64,000 nucleotides of DNA from Bdellovibrionales bacterium (GTDB taxonomy: Bacteria > Bdellovibrionota > Bdellovibrionia > Bdellovibrionales > UBA1609), in contig JAHBUX010000012.1 of the NCBI GenBank assembly GCA_019637855.1, forward strand, positions 1-64,000, read 5' to 3'. Position 1 is the stretch's first letter. Each line of letters opens with the position of its first letter. The notes beneath the pieces were generated by a model, which searched no databases, was not told the DNA's origin, and saw only the letters and a program-made list of their open reading frames with translations. Positions 14,474 through 28,168 of this stretch are shown piece by piece. Both the position numbers and the translations under genes were made by a program.

Positions 14474-16531
14474 ATGCGTTTTTCAGGTGCACTCGCGTTA
14501 GTTTTGGTCCTGATTTTAAGCAGTTGCGGGCCGGCCGGCAAACGGGCTGAAAGCCGCCGTCTGCCTAAGTCCTCCACCGGCTTTTATAAAGAGCCTGGGG
14601 TCGACTATATCACCAACGACCCCTACGTGAAGGCGCGGCTGGCCGAGGGACCCAAGACAGCTGCCGCCCCGGCTCAAACACCTACGCCTGCGCTGCCAAC
14701 GACTCCTATCGCGAAGCCGGCCACACCTGCGCAGCAGCCCACGGCGCAAAAGCCCACGACAGTCAGCCTCAAAGGTCGCATCAAAGGTTTCGAGATTTTC
14801 CGTTACGCTGAGGGCGATGGCAAAAAAGACTCGCGCCTCGGCACAGCCAGCTATGCACTCAGTGTGTTCTTCGGCCCAGACGGCGTCGAAAAATTCTCTG
14901 GTCCGATGAAGGCCGCGGAAGCTTCGACCTACGACCTCAGCAATGTAACCAAGCGTTACGCGCTTAAAGGCAAACTCATCGACAGCAAAGCCGCCAACGG
15001 CAAAGAAAGCACTTCGGGTGTATTCACTCTCACCGATACCGTTACACACGAAACTGTCGAAATCTCCTATCGCGCCGAAAAGACTCGGGTGACCATGCGA
15101 CGAAACGCGGACAAAGCAGTGACCGCCGGCTCGTCGATCGAACGCCAGTTGAAGGCCTTCTGTAACGACAGCATCGAAGTGGTCAATCACTGCAAAAATA
15201 CCTTTGGCTGGGTGAACAATTGGACCGTCCTCGATCCTCCAACGGCCGATCGCCCGGCCTTGGGCGGCCCTTCGTTTTACGTTTACGATCTGTTCCGTGT
15301 GGTGAAATCCGAAGAAGAGGCCAAGCAGGCCTCGTACTCCCCCCCCATGTTCTCGATGCGCGGGGAAAGCCTGCGCACCGGTGGTGAGACCGATGTGTAC
15401 CAGTACGCGGCCGAATCCCTGACGCCGGACGTGGCCACCGATATGCAACTCATCGGCAACGGTCTGAACGGCGATCGCATGTTCGAAGCTAAGCTCATCG
15501 ACAAAGACACCAAAGAAGAAAATGAATTCCTCATCGACTTCGACGTGGAAGCTGAGCCGCAGGTGCAAAGTGCAGCCGAGAGCGAACCCGATGTGGTCGG
15601 CGAAGACACCGACTTAAACAGCGGGGGCGACGATGAAAGTATCGGTCCCGAACGCATCGCCGAGGAAGAGCCGGTGGTGCAACAGCAGCAGCAAGCTATA
15701 ACTACAACCAAGGCCAAAGCGACTCCGCCTTCTTCTGTTGGCGACGCCTACTTAGCGACCGATATGTCCAATTCGAATTCGCGGGCGGCTCGCTTAGTGC
15801 GCGACCTCAACCAAAACCGCGATATTCCTGCTGTACGCACCATGATCGTACGCCTCCAAAAGGGTCAATACGCCAGGGGCGGACCGTGGTTGCCCGACGT
15901 TCGCGGCTTCTTTGCCAACACTTACCCCTTCCGCAAGATGCTCAAGTCGATTGCTAAGACCTTCGATATTTCTCCGGCCTTTGCGTACCTAAGCGCTGGC
16001 GAATCCGGCTATTTGATCGACGGAAAATACGCTCTGAAAGCGGGAGATGGCGGCAAAGCTGTCGGTGCTTTCCAAATGCATCCGGCCGCCGCCGGCGAGA
16101 TGGGATTGCCCGCGAAACATCGCGTGTATTTTGCTCCCGCTTCGTGTGCCGCCGCACGCTACTTAAGCGGCTTCGTGAATCAGTTTTGGAAGGGTGACAC
16201 CACCGTCGCGATCCTGGCCTACAATCAAGGTGGGGGCGGCGCCAAGAAGCTGATGGAAAAGTCCATTAAGCTCGGTGGCAAGTATGCTTACAAGTACTCG
16301 GAGATGCAGAAATATTCCGCACTCAGCGTGGCTAACAAAGACTATGTGAATCGCTTTTTAGCTGTGTACTTTGTGGCTAGCAACATGACGCACTATAAGT
16401 TTGATCCGCGCATTCCCGGAGCAAAGACGGCTTTTCCGCAGAACGGCTCGGTGTTCCCTGGCGGAAGCGCCTCGAACATCCAGGACTCGACTTGTCGAGC
16501 CGCGGTTATGCAGGGCGGGGCCTCATCGTAA
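14474..16531 (+). CDS. lipoprotein with C-terminal lytic transglycosylase (SLT) domain
   Basis: 685-residue lipoprotein: lipobox LSSC (Cys18), a Pro/Ala/Thr linker (about 62-95), an unrecognised region of about 300 residues with two cysteines, an acidic and poly-Gln stretch near 400, and a C-terminal SLT domain (about 490-630). The SLT core shows SAGESGY with catalytic-candidate Glu510, GAFQMHPAAAGEMG, a CAAARYL helix and ILAYNQGGGG. These enzymes cleave peptidoglycan between MurNAc and GlcNAc. The long N-terminal part is unusual and may position the enzyme. It starts at an ATG with AAGGAG presented in a hairpin loop and overlaps convergent folD by 9 bp. Confidence 0.85.
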   Translation: MRFSGALALVLVLILSSCGPAGKRAESRRLPKSSTGFYKEPGVDYITNDPYVKARLAEGPKTAAAPAQTPTPALPTTPIAKPATPAQQPTAQKPTTVSLKGRIKGFEIFRYAEGDGKKDSRLGTASYALSVFFGPDGVEKFSGPMKAAEASTYDLSNVTKRYALKGKLIDSKAANGKESTSGVFTLTDTVTHETVEISYRAEKTRVTMRRNADKAVTAGSSIERQLKAFCNDSIEVVNHCKNTFGWVNNWTVLDPPTADRPALGGPSFYVYDLFRVVKSEEEAKQASYSPPMFSMRGESLRTGGETDVYQYAAESLTPDVATDMQLIGNGLNGDRMFEAKLIDKDTKEENEFLIDFDVEAEPQVQSAAESEPDVVGEDTDLNSGGDDESIGPERIAEEEPVVQQQQQAITTTKAKATPPSSVGDAYLATDMSNSNSRAARLVRDLNQNRDIPAVRTMIVRLQKGQYARGGPWLPDVRGFFANTYPFRKMLKSIAKTFDISPAFAYLSAGESGYLIDGKYALKAGDGGKAVGAFQMHPAAAGEMGLPAKHRVYFAPASCAAARYLSGFVNQFWKGDTTVAILAYNQGGGGAKKLMEKSIKLGGKYAYKYSEMQKYSALSVANKDYVNRFLAVYFVASNMTHYKFDPRIPGAKTAFPQNGSVFPGGSASNIQDSTCRAAVMQGGASS

Positions 16532-17849: not shown

Positions 17850-18098
17850 ATGCGTTCACTTAAAAATGCCCGCGGTCAAAGTTTGATCGAATACGTAATT
17901 CTCGTCGCCTTGGTAGCCGTCGCAACCATGGGGATCGTACGAACCTTGCAAGCCACAATTCGTACCAGCATGACCGGAGTGGTCAATGCACTTCAGGGTA
18001 ACCCCAACCGACCCAACTACACGGCGCCGGATCGAGAGAATGCCAATCGCCGTCTGGATTTCAGCGACTTTATGAATGGCGCGGCTTCTCGCGAATAA
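17850..18098 (+). CDS. Flp/Fap-type major pilin
   Basis: 82-residue type IVb prepilin of the Tad system. A short basic leader ends in ARG, followed by QSLIEYVILVALVAVATMG. This gives the cleavage pattern G|xxxxEY with Glu5 and Tyr6 of the mature pilin, then one hydrophobic helix and a short polar tail rich in Asn/Pro. The ATG is chosen for its perfectly spaced GGAGG. The prepilin peptidase that must process it is not in the window. It is first in a run of overlapping genes encoding further pilin-like proteins. High copy expression is expected for a major subunit; the hairpin on its ribosome-binding site suggests control. Confidence 0.88.
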   Translation: MRSLKNARGQSLIEYVILVALVAVATMGIVRTLQATIRTSMTGVVNALQGNPNRPNYTAPDRENANRRLDFSDFMNGAASRE

Positions 18099-18489
18099 AC
18101 GCGGTTCAAGCGTCGTTGAAGCGACGTTGGCGGTGAGTACGATCACGCTTTTAGCAGGGCTGATCTTAACCACCACCTACATCTGGTTCACCCGCGCTTG
18201 GGTCAGCTATCAGAGCGAACAAGCGCTGTACTGTCTGGGCGAGGGGAGACCGCCCAGACAGTGCCGCCAAAAACTACAACGACACCTTAAGACTCAATTG
18301 CCCTTTGTTGACGTGACCGTTGTACAGGCTTGGCGCACCTACCGAATGTGGAATGTCCAAGTGCAATGGGAATGGAGATTGAAATGGGAACAAATAGACA
18401 AGCGCTATGTTCTGCGTTTGCGCAAAGAGCTTTCGATTCAACAAATCGATCGTATGAGGCGGGATTTGCGGTCGCGAGCTTTCTTGTAG
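18076..18489 (+). CDS. TadE-like minor prepilin
   Basis: 137 residues. A leader MARLLANKRG, then SSVVEATLAVS (G|xxxxE pattern, Glu at +5), and one hydrophobic helix of about 20 residues. A basic, Trp-rich polar domain with two cysteines (YCLGEG, RQCRQK) follows, like TadE/TadF pseudopilins. It overlaps the end of the Flp gene by 23 bp, so translation is probably coupled, and its own 3' end is overlapped by the next gene for about 106 bp. Role: minor subunit or assembly factor of the Tad pilus, by position and N-terminal pattern. Confidence 0.72.
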   Translation: MARLLANKRGSSVVEATLAVSTITLLAGLILTTTYIWFTRAWVSYQSEQALYCLGEGRPPRQCRQKLQRHLKTQLPFVDVTVVQAWRTYRMWNVQVQWEWRLKWEQIDKRYVLRLRKELSIQQIDRMRRDLRSRAFL

Positions 18490-19145
18490 TGGTACCGCTC
18501 CTGATGACGGCCGTCATTTTTGTCGGATCCGCCTTTTACTTTCTGCAGAAAAAGTCTGTCGCGCAATCTCTATGCGTGCAAACGGCCGTGCGTTTGCAAA
18601 CAGCTCTAGGCGAGTCGATGGCCAGTCTCATGCAACTCAACCCAAGAGCGGCCGCCCTACGCCGAGAACGGGCCCGAGCCGAACGCGCTTTGCGCCTGGC
18701 GCTCCGAAGCGGAAATCCCAAAGCCATCGCCGCCGCGAAGGCTTTGCGGTACGCCGTGATCTTGGCGCAATACTCTCATCGCGCCCGTCAGCTGACTATT
18801 TTGCGAAGGGCCGGGCTACAGCGCAGTCAGGCCACTCGCGAACTGACGTTCCGCAGTCGCAAGGTCAGACAGAGCGGCCTAATATCGCAAAGCTTTTATT
18901 CAGAAGCCTTAGCGGTGCATCCCGTGCCTGAAAACTCCTTAACTCCCAGCTATGTCAAAGCGCAGCCGTTTGCAAATTTGCAGAGGCATCGTTTTGCGTT
19001 TCAAGTCGATTTGAAGCCGCCGTTTTTCCCTGTCGACTGGTCGCTTAACGGCTTTCGTCAAAACAGTGAATGCATCGTCACTCTTTCTCAGGAGAACACC
19101 ACATGGAATGCCCGAATTCTCGCGGCCAGTGCAGCGTCGAGCTAA
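18384..19145 (+). CDS. TadE/TadG-like pilus protein
   Basis: 253 residues from the chosen ATG (MGTNRQAL), which has GGAG 6 nt upstream; the frame is open 54 nt further upstream. A hydrophobic helix (EAGFAVASFLVVVPLLMTAVI) follows a 24-residue polar leader. Unlike its neighbours it lacks a clear G|xxxxE site. The rest is strongly basic and helical (about residues 65-150), then a polar domain with one late cysteine. It overlaps the preceding gene by about 106 bp in another frame, unusually long. By position and topology it is a TadG-like or minor pilin component; the family match is weak. Confidence 0.6.
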   Translation: MGTNRQALCSAFAQRAFDSTNRSYEAGFAVASFLVVVPLLMTAVIFVGSAFYFLQKKSVAQSLCVQTAVRLQTALGESMASLMQLNPRAAALRRERARAERALRLALRSGNPKAIAAAKALRYAVILAQYSHRARQLTILRRAGLQRSQATRELTFRSRKVRQSGLISQSFYSEALAVHPVPENSLTPSYVKAQPFANLQRHRFAFQVDLKPPFFPVDWSLNGFRQNSECIVTLSQENTTWNARILAASAASS

Positions 19146-19261
19146 TGCTCGTCACCCTACTCATCATCACCACCATTTATTGCGGATTTGAGCGTTGGAG
19201 AACAAGCCAGATTGACCTACTTCCTGACGTGCAACTTTCTCGTCCACGAGGTGGAAGATGA
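19103..19261 (+). CDS. very small Flp-type prepilin
   Basis: 52-residue protein with leader MECPNSRG and mature start QCSVELMLVTLL, a clean G|xxxxE prepilin site with Glu5, then a hydrophobic helix and an 18-residue tail. The start is supported by AGGAG about 8 nt upstream. It overlaps the preceding gene by 43 bp and its TGA overlaps the ATG of the next gene (ATGA). Probably a minor Tad pilin. It is easily missed in annotation because of its size. Confidence 0.65.
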   Translation: MECPNSRGQCSVELMLVTLLIITTIYCGFERWRTSQIDLLPDVQLSRPRGGR

Positions 19262-19749
19262 AATCTTGGTTCAACACATTCTTACGCCAACCCTGGGATA
19301 AACAAATTCTATGGTCGGCGGCGGCGCTCGCGCTTATCCCGGTGCTTTTTACTTGGCTACGCGCCGATAGCATACCCGCCTCCGCCGCTCCCACGGCGGT
19401 GCAGGACATGAGCACGCATATTCCGAAGGGTTTTGTTTTGATCCCGATCGAGGTGCAAAATTACGAAGCTCTGGACTCCATTCTCGGAAGCTTTGCTCTT
19501 GTCGACCTCTATCAAACCGCTCCTAGTGAGGGGGCTAAAACTCAGCTCTTGGGACGCAATGTCCGCCTGCTGCGCGCGCCGCACAACCCGTCTCATTTCG
19601 CCGTCTTAGTACCCGAAAACGAGGCCCCCGCCGTCCTCCGCTTTGGTGGCCCGTTTACGGTCATCGTTAAGCGTCCCGGAAAGAGTGGAACAGAGTTTGT
19701 AAAGGAACCCACGCGGACCCGACGTTCGATCACTTACGAAGGAAGCTAA
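19258..19749 (+). CDS. CpaB/RcpC-like pilus assembly protein
   Basis: 163 residues with one N-terminal membrane helix (about 18-35), then a periplasmic domain. The stretch IPKGFVLIPIEVQNYEALDSILG, followed by FALVDLYQT and a LLGRNVRLLRAP strand, resembles the SAF/RcpC part of CpaB, which associates with the Tad secretin. It is shorter than usual CpaB (about 250 residues), so it is either a reduced form or a distant analogue. It is coupled to the small pilin by ATGA and followed by the next gene after 1 nt. Confidence 0.55.
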   Translation: MKSWFNTFLRQPWDKQILWSAAALALIPVLFTWLRADSIPASAAPTAVQDMSTHIPKGFVLIPIEVQNYEALDSILGSFALVDLYQTAPSEGAKTQLLGRNVRLLRAPHNPSHFAVLVPENEAPAVLRFGGPFTVIVKRPGKSGTEFVKEPTRTRRSITYEGS

Positions 19750-19750
19750 A

Positions 19751-20713
19751 ATGTTTGCACTCATTCTACTGCTAGGGCTTGTCCCGCCGGCTCATGCCGA
19801 AACCGTATTGGTCCCTGCCCCAGCCAGCGTGAAGCGCGAATATGAGGCGCGACTTGCCGCCAGCTCCTTTGCGTCGCCCTCGCAGGTTTACAAGCGCCAG
19901 CATCCGAGCGCAGAAGGACGCGAGCACCTTCTTTCCTCCTACGCCGATGCACAGAAAGCGTTTCTGCAAAATTCACTGACCGAGGCCATTGTTCGATTCG
20001 AATCCGTGGTCAATCGTTTGCCGAGCGAGGATTGGAGCAGGAGCGATCGCGAACTGATCTTGCTTAGTTGCCTGCGCCTGGCCCAAATCGATAGCGTTCG
20101 TCGCGACCAGTGGCTGACGAAAGCACTCCTTTTAGGTCCCGGTTTGGATATCGATGAGCAGCTGTTTCCACCGCCACTCGTTGCACAACTGAAACGCCTA
20201 CGCGCGGAGGTTCCTTCGGTGCAACCGCGCCGCCTGGTGGACTTCAATGAATGGACCCTAGTTTTAATTAATGGCGTTAGCTGCTCACCTTCCGCCTGCC
20301 CCGAGTTCTCGGATCTGCCATTGACCGTGCGCGTGACGTTTGTGTCAGACCGTTGGTTGCCGCAAACTCTGCACTTGCCGCTCAGCGATCTCGGCAAAGC
20401 ACAACCCGAGCGCTTGGCTTGGCTCGAAGGGGCTTGCGGAGCTCCGCGCTTTCATCCCAAGACCGAAACGCTGGGCACGAAATTGGCGTTCTGGGGTTTG
20501 AATTGTGACGGCGTGAACCCCATCGTGCCTCTTGCGCCAACTCCAACCTTGGCTCTGCCCGAAAATGTAAAACCAGCGGCGACACCGTTTTATAAAAACA
20601 AATGGGTGTGGGCAGGGTTGGGGTTGATTACGGCCGCGCTTGTGATCTCACAGCAACAGCAGCGCGACAGCGTGAAAGAAGAGCGCCAGACGTCGACAAC
20701 CTACGGCTTCTAA
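19751..20713 (+). CDS. Tad-locus protein of unknown family, TPR-like plus membrane helix
   Basis: 320 residues: a signal peptide (1-16, ending AHA), then a helical region (about 50-130) with a TPR-like helix pair (AQKAFLQNSLTEAIVRFESV). A beta-rich domain with a Cys-rich loop (GVSCSPSACPEF) comes next, and a C-terminal hydrophobic helix (WVWAGLGLITAALVI) with a short QQQ-containing tail. Its position directly after the CpaB-like gene suggests a role in the pilus machine, perhaps as a secretin pilotin or platform substitute. I do not recognise the family. The stop is interlocked by 4 nt with the convergent amidohydrolase gene. Confidence 0.6.
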   Translation: MFALILLLGLVPPAHAETVLVPAPASVKREYEARLAASSFASPSQVYKRQHPSAEGREHLLSSYADAQKAFLQNSLTEAIVRFESVVNRLPSEDWSRSDRELILLSCLRLAQIDSVRRDQWLTKALLLGPGLDIDEQLFPPPLVAQLKRLRAEVPSVQPRRLVDFNEWTLVLINGVSCSPSACPEFSDLPLTVRVTFVSDRWLPQTLHLPLSDLGKAQPERLAWLEGACGAPRFHPKTETLGTKLAFWGLNCDGVNPIVPLAPTPTLALPENVKPAATPFYKNKWVWAGLGLITAALVISQQQQRDSVKEERQTSTTYGF

Positions 20714-22008
20714 AGAATATGCTCTCCGCGGAACACCACCTGCTTTGGCTTTTCGTCTTGTAGCAGAGTGAATGAATTCGGCGCCCATGAGAGATCACTA
20801 TGCCCCATGTAACTTGCAGGAGAACCGAGCAAACGCGGAATGCCCGCCTCGGCCGAATCGCGTAAAGCCTGAAAAGTGCGCGCCAGACTGGCCGGCTCAA
20901 TCGGAGCATCACTACCAAAATCAAACGGAATCGCCTGCTCCTGCAATCGGCGCCAGGGAAACGCATGCGCAGTGAGATCACCGATCTTTTGCTGCAACCA
21001 ACGCTGATCGCTCAACCAGTGACTGGGCTGCAGATGACAGCGCACATTCATGCCCTTCATCTTCTCAATCGTTTCAGGACGCACAAGCTCGGCATGCTCG
21101 ATATCCAAAGCACCTTCGTGTCCAGCCGCTTTCAACTCGTGGGCGATGTTCATGACATAGTCGGCCGCCTCGTCTCCAATGGCGTGAATGGCCACATGCA
21201 GGCCCTTCTCCCACGCGCGGCGCAGAGTTTCGGTGAGAGCCGGCTTCTCCCACAGAATCAACCCTTTGTTGTCCGAACCATGATAGCAACGCGATAGCCA
21301 GGCGCCTTCGGAGCCGAGAGCGCCATCTAAAAACAGTTTCAAGCCCATCACGCGCAGATTGTTCGTCTGCTCTTTGCGCGCCCGCTCGCAGAGCTCAAGC
21401 TGAGCATCCAAATCGGACACAAGCTTGAGCCAGAAATACTCTTCAACAGCCAAAGTTAAAACGCCGGATTGATCCAAGCGCATCGCTTCGTTCCATTGCC
21501 GCTCATCGCACGTCATATCGCGGATGTGAGTGAACCCGGCCTCGTTAAAAATCTGCATCGCCTTCAAAAGATAACGGCGCATTTCAAAGGGGCTGATGGC
21601 GGGAATATGTTTTTCCACCTCTTCCGCAGCTTGATCCAAAACCACTCCCGTCAATTCACCATCGTGATCGCGCTCCAAACGACCGCCCTGGGGATCGCTT
21701 GAGGATTTCGACAGGCCGGCGCGCTTCAATGCCTCGCTGTTCAGCCACAGTGAATGGCCGTCACAACGCGAGAGCGCTACAGGGCGCTCGGGCATCCAGG
21801 TGTCCAGCACGCGGCGGTGCGGGCGCTCACTCCAGCCGTTGTCGTCCCAGCCGAAACCGAGCAACCATTCACCGCGGTAGTGATGGGCCTCAGGAGTAAG
21901 GCGCGCTATATCCGCCGCGGATTTCAATCCGTCGAGACGAAGACGTTGAGAGAATTCACCGGTGGCGGCCCAGTGCACGTGACTGTCAAAGCAAGCATCA
22001 ATGCGCAT
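20710..22008 (-). CDS. amidohydrolase 3 (YtcJ/NfdA-like) family hydrolase
   Basis: 432-residue metal-dependent hydrolase. The chain begins almost at the first metal motif, DSHVHW (residues 8-13). Later come MGLKLFLDGALGSEGAW, the HAIGDEA histidine, DIEHAEL and DFGSDAPIEP, which supplies the last metal aspartate. Members hydrolyse amides, carbamates or formamides; the substrate cannot be read from the sequence. The usual N-terminal beta-sandwich half is largely absent, so the domain is slightly reduced. It splits the Tad locus on the opposite strand and follows the NPYG-repeat gene by 36 bp in the same direction. Confidence 0.85.
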   Translation of the reverse strand: MRIDACFDSHVHWAATGEFSQRLRLDGLKSAADIARLTPEAHHYRGEWLLGFGWDDNGWSERPHRRVLDTWMPERPVALSRCDGHSLWLNSEALKRAGLSKSSSDPQGGRLERDHDGELTGVVLDQAAEEVEKHIPAISPFEMRRYLLKAMQIFNEAGFTHIRDMTCDERQWNEAMRLDQSGVLTLAVEEYFWLKLVSDLDAQLELCERARKEQTNNLRVMGLKLFLDGALGSEGAWLSRCYHGSDNKGLILWEKPALTETLRRAWEKGLHVAIHAIGDEAADYVMNIAHELKAAGHEGALDIEHAELVRPETIEKMKGMNVRCHLQPSHWLSDQRWLQQKIGDLTAHAFPWRRLQEQAIPFDFGSDAPIEPASLARTFQALRDSAEAGIPRLLGSPASYMGHSDLSWAPNSFTLLQDEKPKQVVFRGEHIL

Positions 22009-22044
22009 GCACCTAAAGTACGTGGGGAATGTCGACAGGTCAAT

Positions 22045-24021
22045 TTAGCGCGAGCGGATGATGCCGCCGGGGCCCGTGGGTGTCGAAATCGGCGGAGGAA
22101 TTGGCAAAGGCGCAGGACGCGGGGGCAAAGGCAACGGATTCAGATTTGTGCCGGGCGTATTGTAGATCGGAGAGAAGTTGTAGTTCCCACCTAGGCCGTA
22201 GCCACCTCTATAGGCGTAGCCGCCGCCATAACCCCCGCCGCTATAGCCGTAGCCATAGGACGGACCCGGGTAAGGCAATACAGCGGGTGAGTTCCCTCCA
22301 TATACTGGAGAATTCTGAATGCCGACCATAGTGCGCTTCATCTGCTCCATCTGATAGTAGAGATTGCCGAGTGAGGCGTTGTTGTAAGCGCCGTAGGGAT
22401 TTCCGTAAGCAACGCCGCCGCCATAGGGATTTCCAGAAGCATACGGGTTCACTAAACCGCCACCATAGGCGTAGGGGTTCGCAGCAAAGGCATTGCCTCC
22501 GTAGGGCCCAGGGAAAGGCAACACGCCAGGGGCCGCGCCATAGAGATTGTTGCCATAGGGATTGCCGCCGCCGTAAGGATTGATGCCGTAAGGATTCACT
22601 CCGTACTGATATTGATTCTGGAAATACGGATTGCCTTGAAACGGCAAAACCGTTGACGCCGCTCCGCCGTAGAGACTGCTGCCATAGGGATTGTTTAAAC
22701 CATATGGATTTACGCCAAACGGATTTTGACCGCTGGCCATGAGATTCGAGAATGGATTGCCCTGCTGAAACGGAGAATAGGGATTGCCGTACGGATTATA
22801 ACCATTCACTCCATTGCCGAGCACCGGGCCGAAACCGGGTCCATAGCCAGGATTGAACACCGAGTTTTGCAGGGCGGGGTTTGCCATCGGATTGGCGTAG
22901 GGATTGCCAAACGGATTGGATGTCGAATTCAAAAACGGCTGTTGGCCCTGAGCATAAGGATTGCCGTACATTGGATTTGTTCCGCCGCAGCCAAAAGCAC
23001 CACGACCAATTCCACCGGGCAGCGCACCGTATACACCGTTCTGCACTCCCATATATCCGGGCGTCACTGCTGGATAAGGATTGCCTGGATAAGCGCCAGG
23101 GCCTGGGAAAGACGGCATGCGCGGTCCGCCGAGCTGGGGCGGAGGTGCACCAAATTGTGGACGATTCTGCTGGTTGAACAGGCTTACACCCACTAAGGCC
23201 AACATGCCCACCATGGGAGAAATCGACTGAGTTACACTGCTTTGCGAATAGCCGCGGCGTTCGATCCCGCAATAGGGACAATAGCGTCCTTCGGCAATCT
23301 CCTCTTCCAGACGACTGACTTTACGCTCGAGAGAGCGGCACTCCGCATCCAGTTGCGCGCGTTTGGCCTGCAAAGCCTCGCGGCGACCGACGTAGTTGTA
23401 GTAGTCGCGCAAACCTTCGCGGCACTCTTGGCTAGCCTGCGGATTGGGGGCGCCCTGAAAGCTCGGAATATTGTAGTTACAAACTTGGTCAGAGATGGTC
23501 CCTTTGTCGTTGGCCAGCTCGGCCCATGTGTTGACCGTCTTGCCACCACGGGGGCGATAGCAGAAATCATCGGGAGGATACACTGGCGTCGTACCGTTTG
23601 CAGAGCCACCGGGATTCGAACCACCACCGCGTTTGGGCAGTGTGGCCGTGACGTTACCCCCGCTAGCGCTAGCGACCGCTCCAGGATTTTGCGGACAATC
23701 GTAGTAGTCGTAATAACCGCGTTTGAATGTGCGATGATCTTCAATGCTGGTGATAGCGGTGCCGGGAAGCACGCGTCTCATATCGCCGCGAGCGCGTTCG
23801 ATCTTTTCATCATAAGTGCCAAGCTCGTTTTCAATCTGGTCGAGCTGCTGGCGAGCGACATCGTAACGCCCTTGCAGGTTGACCACCTCATCGCGCCCAT
23901 TCATAGAGCCCGCGCCCGGCTGATAGCCGTATGGACACTGGGCGCTCGGAGCTATGCCTACGCCATACTGCGCATGAGCACTGGCGGCAAAGGCGATAAG
24001 CATGGCGAGCAAAGGACGCAT
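22045..24021 (-). CDS. large secreted NPYG-repeat protein
   Basis: 658 residues from the ATG at MRPLLAML, chosen because AGGAG precedes it and a signal peptide (1-18, ending AHA) starts there. The N-terminal 240 residues hold two coiled-coil-like stretches and several cysteines, ending in a CPYCG pair. Then a hydrophobic stretch (SPMVGMLALVGVSLF) leads into about 400 residues dominated by Asn-Pro-Tyr-Gly/Ala units (some 16 NPY copies at irregular spacing) plus Gly/Tyr/Pro. The end is Pro-rich with SR. The composition suggests a surface matrix, adhesive or fibre protein. It lies inside the split Tad locus but on the opposite strand. Confidence 0.75.
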   Translation of the reverse strand: MRPLLAMLIAFAASAHAQYGVGIAPSAQCPYGYQPGAGSMNGRDEVVNLQGRYDVARQQLDQIENELGTYDEKIERARGDMRRVLPGTAITSIEDHRTFKRGYYDYYDCPQNPGAVASASGGNVTATLPKRGGGSNPGGSANGTTPVYPPDDFCYRPRGGKTVNTWAELANDKGTISDQVCNYNIPSFQGAPNPQASQECREGLRDYYNYVGRREALQAKRAQLDAECRSLERKVSRLEEEIAEGRYCPYCGIERRGYSQSSVTQSISPMVGMLALVGVSLFNQQNRPQFGAPPPQLGGPRMPSFPGPGAYPGNPYPAVTPGYMGVQNGVYGALPGGIGRGAFGCGGTNPMYGNPYAQGQQPFLNSTSNPFGNPYANPMANPALQNSVFNPGYGPGFGPVLGNGVNGYNPYGNPYSPFQQGNPFSNLMASGQNPFGVNPYGLNNPYGSSLYGGAASTVLPFQGNPYFQNQYQYGVNPYGINPYGGGNPYGNNLYGAAPGVLPFPGPYGGNAFAANPYAYGGGLVNPYASGNPYGGGVAYGNPYGAYNNASLGNLYYQMEQMKRTMVGIQNSPVYGGNSPAVLPYPGPSYGYGYSGGGYGGGYAYRGGYGLGGNYNFSPIYNTPGTNLNPLPLPPRPAPLPIPPPISTPTGPGGIIRSR

Positions 24022-24172
24022 CGGGTGGAAAACTCCTAATACTAAAGACACACGTTCATCTCTCTTTTCGTAAACTAAAGCCCGGAACTTGACCTCGACG
24101 CCGCAAACCAGACTTAAGCCAAGTCGCGGAGCGGTTGCGGGCGTCGCCCAAGGACCTTAGAATTGTTTAGAG

Positions 24173-25276
24173 ATGAAACACCATATTTTGTGCGTCGACG
24201 ACGAAGTCGACAACGTCGATGCCCTGGAGCGGTTGTTCCGCAAGAAGTACACCGTTCATAAAGCCACTTCGGGCAAGCAGGCGCTCAAAATTTTAGAAGA
24301 GAATAAAATCTCATTGATCGTCACCGACCAACGCATGCCGGGCATGACCGGCGTCGAGCTCTTGGCCGAGAGCATGGAGTCCACTCCCGAGGCCATTCGC
24401 ATTCTCCTGACCGGTTACACCGATATCGACTCTGTGATTGCCGCGGTCAACTCCGGCCAAATCTATCGCTATGTCACGAAGCCCTGGGATCCAGTGGATC
24501 TGGCGAACGCCGTCGACAAGGCTTTGGAACGTTACGAGCTTTCGGCCGAGCTCAAAGATAAAAACGCACGCCTTGAGACGGCACTGCGCGAACTACGCAG
24601 TTTAGATGAGGCCAAGTCGAACTTTATGATACTGATCAATCACGAATTGAAGACCCCTCTCACCGTGATTCTAAGTTTTATGGGACTCTTACAAGAGACC
24701 AATTTGAACGACGAGCAAAAAAAGTACCTAGATCGCATTTCACAAAGTGCCGATCGCCTACAGGCCATGATCAGTGATTCGTTGGAGTTGGTGTCAGCCG
24801 AAACGGGCACAATGCCGGTGAAAATTACGGGCATCAATCTCAAGAAGCTAATGAGCGAGTTGAATCAGACCTATCAGGCTCAGCTCGATAAAAAAGGCAT
24901 GACCCTCGATCTGGCTTTTGAAGCCTCCGATGTGCGCGCGGACGCAAAAGCTTTGCGTTCCGTGTTGACGCGCCTGTTGGACAACGCGGTGAAGTTCGGT
25001 CATGAGAAGACGTCGATTGAATTCAGCACTCGCGTGACCGACGAGGGCCACGTGCATGTCTCCATGTCCAACGAGGGTAAGTCCCTCAAGGCCGACACGA
25101 TCGCGAAGATTCTGAAGCCTTTTTCCTTGGATGAGAACATCATGCATCATACGAAAGGTAGTGGTTTGGGCCTAAGCGTGGTGCAAGCTCTGCTGCATCG
25201 CTTGGGTTCGCAGCTGGAGGTGCAGTCGCCGAAAGGCCGCTTCGAAGCCTCCTTTGTTCTGACTTCGGACCGTTAA
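24173..25276 (+). CDS. receiver-histidine kinase hybrid (REC-HisKA-HATPase)
   Basis: 367-residue soluble signalling protein. An N-terminal receiver (about 1-120) starts HILCVDDEVDN, with phosphoacceptor Asp52 in TDQRMPGMTG and a late YVTKPWD, the style of RpfG-like receivers. A helical linker follows. The kinase part has NHELKTPL with His157 and GSGLGLSVV in the ATPase domain. Such proteins take phosphate from another kinase and modulate their own kinase output. It lies between the two halves of the Tad genes on the same strand as cpaC, so it may control pilus expression (inference). Confidence 0.88.
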   Translation: MKHHILCVDDEVDNVDALERLFRKKYTVHKATSGKQALKILEENKISLIVTDQRMPGMTGVELLAESMESTPEAIRILLTGYTDIDSVIAAVNSGQIYRYVTKPWDPVDLANAVDKALERYELSAELKDKNARLETALRELRSLDEAKSNFMILINHELKTPLTVILSFMGLLQETNLNDEQKKYLDRISQSADRLQAMISDSLELVSAETGTMPVKITGINLKKLMSELNQTYQAQLDKKGMTLDLAFEASDVRADAKALRSVLTRLLDNAVKFGHEKTSIEFSTRVTDEGHVHVSMSNEGKSLKADTIAKILKPFSLDENIMHHTKGSGLGLSVVQALLHRLGSQLEVQSPKGRFEASFVLTSDR

Positions 25277-25292
25277 GCGTCCGGCCGGACGC
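25277..25292 (+). terminator. 16-nt palindrome after the kinase gene
   Basis: Perfect GCGTCCGG / CCGGACGC palindrome directly after the stop codon of the receiver-kinase gene, followed by a weak T-rich stretch (CATTTGCCAGTTTATC). A partial terminator or attenuator before cpaC. Confidence 0.4.
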
Positions 25293-25348
25293 CATTTGCC
25301 AGTTTATCGCCGTTGATCGTGCCTCGAGCTTTGCAGAGATGAGCCGTT

Positions 25349-26650
25349 ATGAAGTGGCTTATCTTATTTCTCTTTTCGTTCCCTGCGTTCTCCTCGGAGC
25401 TTTGGCTAAAAGTCGGTGAGGTACGCCACCTCAATGCCCCGCGTACATCCGCTGTCAAAGTCGGTGGGCGCGGGGTGATTCGCATTATCGACGCCGAAAA
25501 TGGAATCCGCATCGTCGGCCTGAAGCCCGGCAGCGTGTCTTTGATCGTGGGCGAGTCCTCCTACAATGTACGCGTAAGCCACTCGGCGCAGAAAAACTTT
25601 GTGCAGGAGCTGCGCGCAGTCGTAGGGAAAATGATGGGGCTGAAGCTCGCATTCAACGGCGATAGCCCTGAAGTGCGCGGCACTTTGCTGCGCTTTTCTG
25701 ACTGGTTAACCTTGGCTCGTCTGGCGCGACAATATGAGGGAGAGTACGTGTTTCGCGCGCGGCCTCTGCCCGACGTCGCCGAAGAAGCCTTAACTCACCT
25801 GCGAGATTTGGCTCGCCAACAGGGTTATCCGATCGTGCGTTTCAGTCACGATCCCGAATTCACCGCCGAGCTGCCACAAACTTCTCCTGCCCTCAAAGCC
25901 GCCGCGGCCGCAAGCTTAAGGCCTTATGGAATCCAAGTCGATATGTCGAAAGCCGAACTCTCCTTGCAGCCTTTAGTGAAGACGCGCGTGATCGTGGCGG
26001 AAGTGTCGCGCCAGTTCTCACGTGAGTTCGGTGTGCAATGGCCCTCTGAATATCTAGGGCAGATTCTACCGCGGATCGCGCCGGGCCAGACGGACTTGAT
26101 GGCGACGTTGAAGGCGCTTGAGTCACGCGGAGAGGCACAGATTTTGGCCTCTCCCAATCTTCTCTGCCGTAGTGGAGGAGAGGCGCGTTTTCATGCCGGG
26201 GGCGAGTTTCCGATCCGCATGACTTCGCGTTCATATCAAAACGTCGAATGGAAATCGCACGGCGTTCTTCTGCGGGTTAAGCCGCGTGCCGACTTTCAAG
26301 GCGCCATGAGCCTAGAGGTGGAAACCGAGGTCTCCCTATTGGATGCGGCCAATTCGGTGGACGGAATTCCGGCTCTAAAGAAAAACAGCGTGAAGAGCCA
26401 CTTTGATCTGGCGGGCAAACGCACCATCGCGCTTTCCGGCTTGCTACGGCAAGAGCTCGGGCAAGCGCGCGAAGGTTTGCCGTTACTCAGCTCCCTCCCC
26501 GTACTGGGTCCGTTGTTCTCAAGCCGGCGTTTTCAGAGCCGGCAAAGCGAGTTAGTTATCTTTGTGACGCCGGAAGTGACCGGCCCCGAATCCGACGAAA
26601 AAATCGAAATGCCGAAAGGCTGGGTGGTGCAAGATGCATTTGGAAACTGA
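25349..26650 (+). CDS. cpaC: Tad-type secretin (CpaC/RcpA)
   Basis: 433-residue outer-membrane secretin of the Tad pilus. A signal peptide (1-16) is followed by the pilus-specific N-terminal domain (about 17-90: LWLKVGEVRHLNA ... GLKPGSVSLIVG). A short middle region leads to the secretin core (about 210-420: FGVQWP, ILASPNLL with GGEARFHAGGEFPI, and LLSSLPVLGPLFSS near the end, then VIFVTPEV). These are the hallmark secretin strands. It forms the outer-membrane channel for the fibre. Its 3' end overlaps cpaF by 17 bp, so the two are coupled. No separate pilotin is seen. Confidence 0.9.
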   Translation: MKWLILFLFSFPAFSSELWLKVGEVRHLNAPRTSAVKVGGRGVIRIIDAENGIRIVGLKPGSVSLIVGESSYNVRVSHSAQKNFVQELRAVVGKMMGLKLAFNGDSPEVRGTLLRFSDWLTLARLARQYEGEYVFRARPLPDVAEEALTHLRDLARQQGYPIVRFSHDPEFTAELPQTSPALKAAAAASLRPYGIQVDMSKAELSLQPLVKTRVIVAEVSRQFSREFGVQWPSEYLGQILPRIAPGQTDLMATLKALESRGEAQILASPNLLCRSGGEARFHAGGEFPIRMTSRSYQNVEWKSHGVLLRVKPRADFQGAMSLEVETEVSLLDAANSVDGIPALKKNSVKSHFDLAGKRTIALSGLLRQELGQAREGLPLLSSLPVLGPLFSSRRFQSRQSELVIFVTPEVTGPESDEKIEMPKGWVVQDAFGN

Positions 26651-27713
26651 CGTGCGTGGCATCCTCGATGCCTTCGAAAAAACGTGGACCTTCGACGTGC
26701 GCGACTTGAGTCGTCCGAGCTCCGCGCAGGTGTTGAATGAATTGATCGCCAAATGTGAAGAAGCTCACCGCCCTAGACTGGAGCTCGAGTTCTCAGGTAG
26801 CGGCCCCTTAGATCCCCTTCTGTCCGATGAAGGCGTACTTGAGATCGTAGTCAATGGGCGTAACGAAATCTGGTTTGAAAAGAGCGGCCGTTTGCAACGC
26901 CACGCCGACGGATTTCTAAGCGATCTGACCTTCAAAAACTTCATTGACCGCATGTGCGCTGAAGCCCAGATGCGCATCGACCTGGCGCAGCCTTTCGCAA
27001 ACGGCCGCTGGCGAGGATTTCGTGCGCACCTGGTATGCGGGCCACTCACTCACTGCGACTACCATCTATGTTTGCGTCGTTTGCCTGAAAATCCGTGGAC
27101 ACTAACCAAACTAGAAAAGGTGGGTTGGTGCACTCCTAAACAGACCGCGCTGCTACGCCGTCTATTGACTGAGCGTCGCAATGTGATTGTGATCGGGCCG
27201 ACAGGCTCTGGTAAAACTTCAGTGTTGGGTGCTTGCCTGCGCGAGTTGCCACAAGAAGAACGTGTGGTGATTATCGAAGACACCGATGAGCTTCCTCGTC
27301 CTAATGCGGCCAGCACCAAACTTCTGACTCGCCCTGAACTCTCCGCCGATCTGCATGAAGTCACCTTAGCTGAATTGGTCAAACAGAGTCTGCGCATGCG
27401 GCCGTTCCGCCTAGCGATCGGCGAAGTGCGCGGGCCGGAAGCAAAAGATCTACTGCAAGCTCTGGCCACCGGTCATGATGGCAGCTGGGGAACCTTGCAC
27501 GCCAGTGATGCGCGACAGGCGCTTTTGCGTTTGGAAATGCTGATACAACTAGGTGCTCCGCAATGGAGCGTACAGGCGATTCGACAGCTGATGCAACTAA
27601 GTGTGGAAGCGATCGTCGTGTGTGGAACGCAAAACGGCCACCGGCGCCTCGAAGGCGTATATCGGGTGGCCGCTCTTGAGTCCATCGGACTCTTACTCGA
27701 ACCTATGACTTAG
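26634..27713 (+). CDS. cpaF: Tad pilus assembly ATPase (CpaF/TadA)
   Basis: 359-residue type II secretion superfamily ATPase. Walker A is GPTGSGKTS (near residue 190), the Asp box is VVIIEDTDEL, and Walker B with the GEVRGPEAKDLLQAL signature and GHDGSWGTLHA follow. The N-terminal domain (about 1-150) carries LEIVVNGRNEIW, as in CpaF. It powers pilus extension (and perhaps retraction) at the inner membrane. It overlaps cpaC by 17 bp. TadB/TadC, its normal platform partners, do not follow; instead the next gene is convergent with a 4-nt interlocked stop. Confidence 0.93.
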   Translation: MHLETDVRGILDAFEKTWTFDVRDLSRPSSAQVLNELIAKCEEAHRPRLELEFSGSGPLDPLLSDEGVLEIVVNGRNEIWFEKSGRLQRHADGFLSDLTFKNFIDRMCAEAQMRIDLAQPFANGRWRGFRAHLVCGPLTHCDYHLCLRRLPENPWTLTKLEKVGWCTPKQTALLRRLLTERRNVIVIGPTGSGKTSVLGACLRELPQEERVVIIEDTDELPRPNAASTKLLTRPELSADLHEVTLAELVKQSLRMRPFRLAIGEVRGPEAKDLLQALATGHDGSWGTLHASDARQALLRLEMLIQLGAPQWSVQAIRQLMQLSVEAIVVCGTQNGHRRLEGVYRVAALESIGLLLEPMT

Positions 27714-28168
27714 GCACGCACATCGATGTACGAACCGCGCGGAGTGTAATCCTCGGGTGCGTCCATCACTTCATGCGCTTCAATGTTGGCATTTTGCGCT
27801 TCACCGGCGTTGCGTGTCTCCGGGGAAGTTCCCATTTCAATGCCATTCACCGGCTCTTGACCGACGATCTGTCCCGTCTTGGGTAACGAGACTTGGTTGT
27901 CTTCGGGGCGACGGATGCGGCTCATAAAAAACTGATCCGCCATGTTCTCGACGACACGGTCCTGTACGGATGATCTGCGCTGTTCGCGCAGTTGCAGATT
28001 TAAGGCGGCGGCACGGCTGGCCGTGGTGCCTTCGCGTTCCGGGCTGGCCGAGGCTTCACCTATGGGCCTTCCGTAACTGGGCGTTCCCGGCCTCACTGCC
28101 GATGAACTTTTCAAATCGACCGAAGACACACGCGAGTTGCCTCGGACGATATTACTGATCTTCTCCAC
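27710..28168 (-). CDS. hypothetical protein, polar and disordered-like
   Basis: 152 residues, no signal peptide or membrane helix, rich in Ser, Arg, Gly, Pro and Glu. One helical segment (ASRAAALNLQLREQR to VENMADQFFMSR) is the only ordered part expected. The C-terminus ends PRGSYIDVRA. I do not recognise it. It is read from its own promoter between the aspS 3' region and cpaF, and its stop is interlocked by 4 nt with that of cpaF. Confidence 0.6.
   Translation of the reverse strand: MEKISNIVRGNSRVSSVDLKSSSAVRPGTPSYGRPIGEASASPEREGTTASRAAALNLQLREQRRSSVQDRVVENMADQFFMSRIRRPEDNQVSLPKTGQIVGQEPVNGIEMGTSPETRNAGEAQNANIEAHEVMDAPEDYTPRGSYIDVRA

Follow-up and report, generated by a model that had tools for sequence, protein, structure and literature searches.

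In a 64-kb stretch of a Bdellovibrionales genome (G000:C4:1-64000, hereafter the window; source genome 3.37 Mb, 99.98% complete), we identified a locus that is intact and derived from Tad pilus genes. It probably encodes a second, dependent Tad pilus system that lacks a platform of its own and runs on shared TadB/TadC. The locus has two blocks on the plus strand, a pilin block (17850-20713) and a kinase–secretin–CpaF block, which are split by two minus-strand genes. An earlier note, written from the sequence alone, had described Flp-type pilins, TadE-like and TadG-like proteins, a secretin and a CpaF ATPase in two blocks, and each of these genes is an intact open reading frame (ORF) where it had been placed.

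The pilin block opens with the major pilin (17850-18098), which matches Pfam Flp_Fap at E 2.6e-7 (30.8 bits, slightly below the 32.2 cut-off). It carries the type IVb prepilin motif (G^xxxxEY) as RGQSLIEY, and the Flp pilins of relatives keep GQ(G/S)L(I/V)EY. The TadE-like minor pilin (18076-18489) has an RGSSVVEA motif and a hydrophobic helix; orthologues lie at the same place in relatives, where the motif is retained. The larger, TadG-like minor pilin (18459-19145) was assigned from alignment of its N-terminus (G^FAVAS, lacking the glutamate at +5) and from its conservation in 17 of 20 relative loci. Neither the TadE-like nor the TadG-like protein has a Pfam match, and the putative TadE/F/G-type minor pilins are proposed from prepilin-type N-termini at the expected place. 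A fourth pilin-like gene, absent from the earlier note, encodes 63 residues (19070-19261) with a GQxxxE prepilin motif (RGQCSVEL) and a hydrophobic helix, and an ORF with the GQxxxE motif occupies its place in all nine relatives read. Genes for a 163-residue (19258-19749) and a 320-residue protein (19751-20713) complete the block. Since the genes of the block overlap successively, and those for the 163- and 320-residue proteins are one base apart, the block is probably a single transcript.

The 163-residue protein has no Pfam match, and NCBIfam searches with the small proteins of the locus were uninformative. Its AlphaFold2 model (pLDDT 85.8) consists of one transmembrane (TM) helix and a D2-type ring domain. 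By VIA-align the model matched residues 119-241 of Pseudomonas aeruginosa RcpC (PDB 9gzr; PMC12307814) with Z 9.0 over 95 residues (rmsd 2.8 Å), the runner-up reaching Z 4.5, and Foldseek also ranked RcpC first (probability 0.99, E 0.016). By sequence, the profile comparison with CpaB gave a probability of only 0.4%, though in the expected register, and Pfam RcpC was found for one of the 21 family members (E 0.15). We therefore base the call on structure: the protein is predicted to resemble the D2 ring domain of RcpC/CpaB. In P. aeruginosa, the RcpC D2 domains form a C12 ring of the alignment complex, preceded by D1 (PMC12307814). The window protein would share the D2 fold; unlike RcpC, it has no SAF/D1 domain. 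The earlier note listed a short CpaB-like protein apart from a 163-codon gene of no clear family; the two appear to be one gene.

Between the two blocks lie an amidohydrolase (Amidohydro_3, Pfam 1.6e-54; 20710-22008, minus strand), which is probably not part of the machine and is missing from its place in several relatives (e.g. L060, L062, L068 and L072), and a 668-residue secreted protein rich in Gly, Asn and Tyr (22045-24051, minus strand). The latter, transcribed divergently from the kinase, keeps its place and poorly keeps its sequence, ranging from about 500 to 930 aa in relatives, and is a possible secreted or surface protein. These two genes and the kinase gene had been taken together as three unrelated-looking genes. 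The kinase (24173-25276) does not fit that description: this hybrid protein, with receiver, HisKA and HATPase domains (Pfam Response_reg 1.1e-21, HisKA 1.2e-16, HATPase_c 1.1e-15), is encoded directly before the secretin in nearly every relative, and it probably belongs to the module as its regulator.

The RcpA/CpaC-type secretin (25349-26650; Pfam Secretin 1.3e-34) is one of four secretins in the genome, and a profile built from it also matches the secretins of Shewanella Tad loci. It adjoins the CpaF/TadA ATPase (26634-27713; T2SSE 4.9e-37), in which the Walker A, Walker B and His motifs are intact and fall in invariant or nearly invariant columns of the alignment. The best NCBIfam match of this window-type CpaF is the TadA-family model TIGR03819 (1.9e-66, under its cut-off). 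In a CpaF tree the standard-type CpaFs separate from the window type (97/97); the long branches L132 and L126 are unsure and their placement was not used. In one relative (L089), either decay or sequencing error has split both the amidohydrolase and the window-type CpaF (296 + 85 aa) across frames. A gene for a 152-residue protein of no known family (27710-28168, minus strand) lies between cpaF and aspS here and in most relatives. At the other end, beside folD, lies a gene (14474-16531, plus strand) whose 685-residue product weakly matches lytic transglycosylase (SLT); several relatives keep this gene next to the locus as well. Tad pili are not known to be accompanied by any peptidoglycan hydrolase (PMC12307814).

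TadB, TadC, TadZ and a prepilin peptidase had been reported as absent from the window, and our profile and domain searches agree. TadB and TadC profiles, which recover the genome's own proteins at 1e-112 and 1e-117, respectively, found nothing in the 64 kb (best E 0.36), and none of the locus proteins has more than two membrane segments. Pfam detected no MinD/CpaE-type protein, as expected of TadZ, among the locus proteins scanned. The only two A24 prepilin peptidases of the genome map elsewhere, at C1:581604 and C21:139522.

The earlier note had offered two possibilities, that the missing parts are encoded elsewhere or that the machine is stripped down and uses new ones. The former holds, as TadB, TadC, a CpaF-fused TadZ and CpaA/TadV are all encoded elsewhere in the genome. 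A fuller Tad locus on C1 (L017) contains a Flp-like pilin, CpaA/TadV (the 171-aa A24 peptidase), more pilin-like proteins, a CpaB with SAF and RcpC domains, a secretin, a 762-residue protein in which a MinD-type (TadZ-like) domain is fused to CpaF, and the single TadB (C1:588213-589088). It continues with an RHS-repeat protein and a 90-residue protein (L017:12089-14062), whose positions correspond to those of Bd0109 and Bd0108 in the host-interaction locus. The single TadC (C1:805597-806505) is 217 kb further on, among FHA proteins (L018). The second A24 peptidase (283 aa, PilD-type) and a third CpaF (372 residues) are both on C21. In total, the genome has six T2SSF domains: those of two two-domain PilC/GspF-type proteins (405 and 418 aa), TadB and TadC. 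Elsewhere in the genome there could also be a platform protein that has diverged beyond the reach of PF00482.

The same arrangement recurs across the order. We compared gene order, as the earlier note had proposed, and found that folD, the pilin block, kinase–secretin–CpaF, the 152-residue gene and aspS keep their order in relatives including Bdellovibrio bacteriovorus kdesi (L085). Twenty related genomes show this order, as do about 35 named contigs from Bdellovibrionota, in full or up to the contig ends. A profile search of the window and of 58 related loci found no platform gene. Genome-wide, exactly one strong TadB is present in 58 of 59 genomes of the order (lacking in G003) and exactly one TadC in 57 (lacking in G017 and G038), and some of these exceptions are fragmented or incomplete assemblies. 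In most genomes, the T2SSF domains number six. The window-type CpaF scores above 400 bits in at least 48 of the 59, besides other CpaF types, and most genomes among those listed also have the other two types, of about 375 and about 760 residues. The kdesi strain, for example, has three CpaF proteins, one TadB and one TadC. The occurrence of a single TadB/TadC beside several CpaF types throughout the order argues for a conserved, platform-less accessory system and against a degenerate one.

That the locus is the degenerate leftover of a duplicated Tad operon is accordingly very improbable. Its reduced gene set and short RcpC would fit such an origin, as would the laboratory silence of flp3, a B. 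bacteriovorus pilin gene (PMC5430801). The C1 locus is also nearly a complete Tad operon, all but TadC. Against this, the ORFs are all open, catalytic residues and ATPase motifs are kept, and synteny extends across the order, where protein identity of the secretin and CpaF is about 28-63%. We therefore reject the degenerate copy.

The 163- and 320-codon genes had been noted as occupying the place of the missing components, and structure prediction identifies neither as a substitute for the platform. The AlphaFold2 model of the 320-residue protein (pLDDT 86.9) has a signal sequence, TPR-like helices (52-153), a small beta domain (170-250) and a C-terminal TM helix (284-308). Its helical bundle reaches Z 8-10 against many TPR proteins, scores that are common for helical repeats. 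The TPR-like helices would suit a TadD pilotin; this reading is not supported because the protein, with its C-terminal TM helix, has no lipobox. From the model, it is best described as a putative periplasmic TPR/beta/TM protein of no known family. A machine that dispenses with the usual platform, in which CpaF drives a filament or protein export and the 320-residue or another protein stands in for the platform, would be consistent with the lack of a platform gene at the locus in every relative read and with the 320-residue protein being a conserved member (43 of 59 genomes). Nevertheless, the lone C-terminal TM helix and periplasmic body of this protein are unlike the multi-helix T2SSF fold, for which reason we rejected it as a platform, and nearly every genome has TadB/TadC. 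We consider such a machine improbable.

Related loci elsewhere also bear on the platform. In two Bacteriovoracaceae contigs (L126 and L132), a window-like secretin–CpaF pair is followed by a divergent T2SSF protein of 358 and 284 aa, respectively (L126:8460-9533, E 4e-8; L132:1771-2622, E 1.9e-8), with two matched stretches, and a profile of the two matches TadC at 1.5e-9. Because the pair there precedes a T2SSF gene of its own, these contigs suggest that a window-like motor normally uses a T2SSF-fold platform. We found no private platform copy in Bdellovibrionia, either in the window and related loci or in genome-wide T2SSF searches. Genus g20 (G022:C85 and G034:C53) differs from the rest in that about 11-15 kb separate TadC from the window-type CpaF. 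Prepilin peptidases vary as well. In G042, G043, G048, G053 and G056, the single A24 peptidase is of the PilD type and the small TadV type was not found, as in family f8 as a whole (G042, G048, G053 and G056). PilD therefore probably processes the Flp pilins in these five genomes, and Bdellovibrio has been stated to lack TadV (PMC5430801).

Gene counts and published locus tags lead us to infer that the window locus is the counterpart of B. bacteriovorus bd3297 (flp3) to bd3307 (cpaF), with bd3306 as the secretin; the gene count agrees exactly when the 63-residue gene is included. The B. bacteriovorus pilin, secretin (bd3306, called pilQ) and ATPase genes have been named singly, and flp3 is counted among the pilin genes that lie outside the TAD locus (PMC5430801; PMC3818213). 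No condition tested gave flp3 expression, predation was unaffected by its deletion, and the gene failed to complement flp1 or flp4 (PMC5430801). As flp3 is silent and dispensable for predation in B. bacteriovorus, expression of the locus is likely to be conditional, and the system may rarely be made.

The same data could be read differently, with kinase–secretin–CpaF giving pilins encoded at other loci (e.g. Flp4 or those of the hit locus) an alternative motor and exit pore, and the pilin block being a separate, rarely used unit. In agreement, flp3 is silent (PMC5430801), while bd3307 is among the genes whose attack-phase level exceeds that of host-independent strains (PMC3818213). Minus-strand genes split the two blocks, and three loci (L107, L108 and L111) have secretin–CpaF with no recognised pilin block within the flank fetched. 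However, where enough flank is available the blocks nearly always adjoin, and we regard this reading as unlikely.

Under our preferred reading, a dependent pilus system on a shared platform, the locus would supply its own pilin set (Flp, TadE-like, TadG-like and 63-residue pilins), together with an RcpC D2-like alignment ring, secretin, CpaF motor, TPR/beta/TM protein and regulator. Prepilins would be cut by CpaA/TadV or by PilD. The CpaF hexamer would dock under the single TadB/TadC pair, with TadB coming from the hit-type locus and TadC from the FHA operon, and the filament would pass through the D2-type ring and then the secretin. The kinase would set the timing of expression, and one platform pair would be shared by several CpaF motors, probably at different times. 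Here we infer docking on the shared platform, timing and filament formation alike.

Tad machines are usually regarded as self-contained. In the proposed system, a cell that has as many as three CpaF proteins and two Tad-type secretins would make do with a single platform pair and one or two prepilin peptidases, an arrangement conserved across an order that includes predators. Motor exchange on a shared Tad platform would be directly testable in B. bacteriovorus, where flp3, hitherto listed as an orphan silent pilin, would gain a machine. The 163-residue protein would offer a natural minimal RcpC for learning which portion of the alignment ring is required.

Single genes of the bd3297–bd3307-type locus have been described before, as has the Tad family at length. 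In the freely accessible article texts searched, we found no description of bd3297–bd3307 as one platform-less Tad-like locus. In B. bacteriovorus kdesi, its gene order is the same as in the window. The layout of the C1 locus corresponds to the Bdellovibrio hit/TAD locus bd0108-bd0119 (PMC5430801; PMC3818213), and TadC is apart from the Tad locus in our genome just as bd0470 is apart from the TAD locus (PMC3818213; PMC6561027). In Bdellovibrio, flp1, flp2 and tadC are required for predation (PMC5430801; PMC6561027). The hit/TAD locus and the window locus have Flp pilins, secretin and CpaF in common by kind, and the predicted RcpC-like protein of the window locus would correspond to CpaB. In contrast to the window locus, the hit/TAD locus includes TadB, a TadZ–CpaF fusion and a full, SAF-containing CpaB (plus CpaA in this genome). 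The Kil system of Myxococcus is likewise Tad-derived, predator-associated and equipped with several minor pilins (PMC8460266; PMC12075869), but it includes platform proteins, KilG and KilH, whereas the window locus has none.
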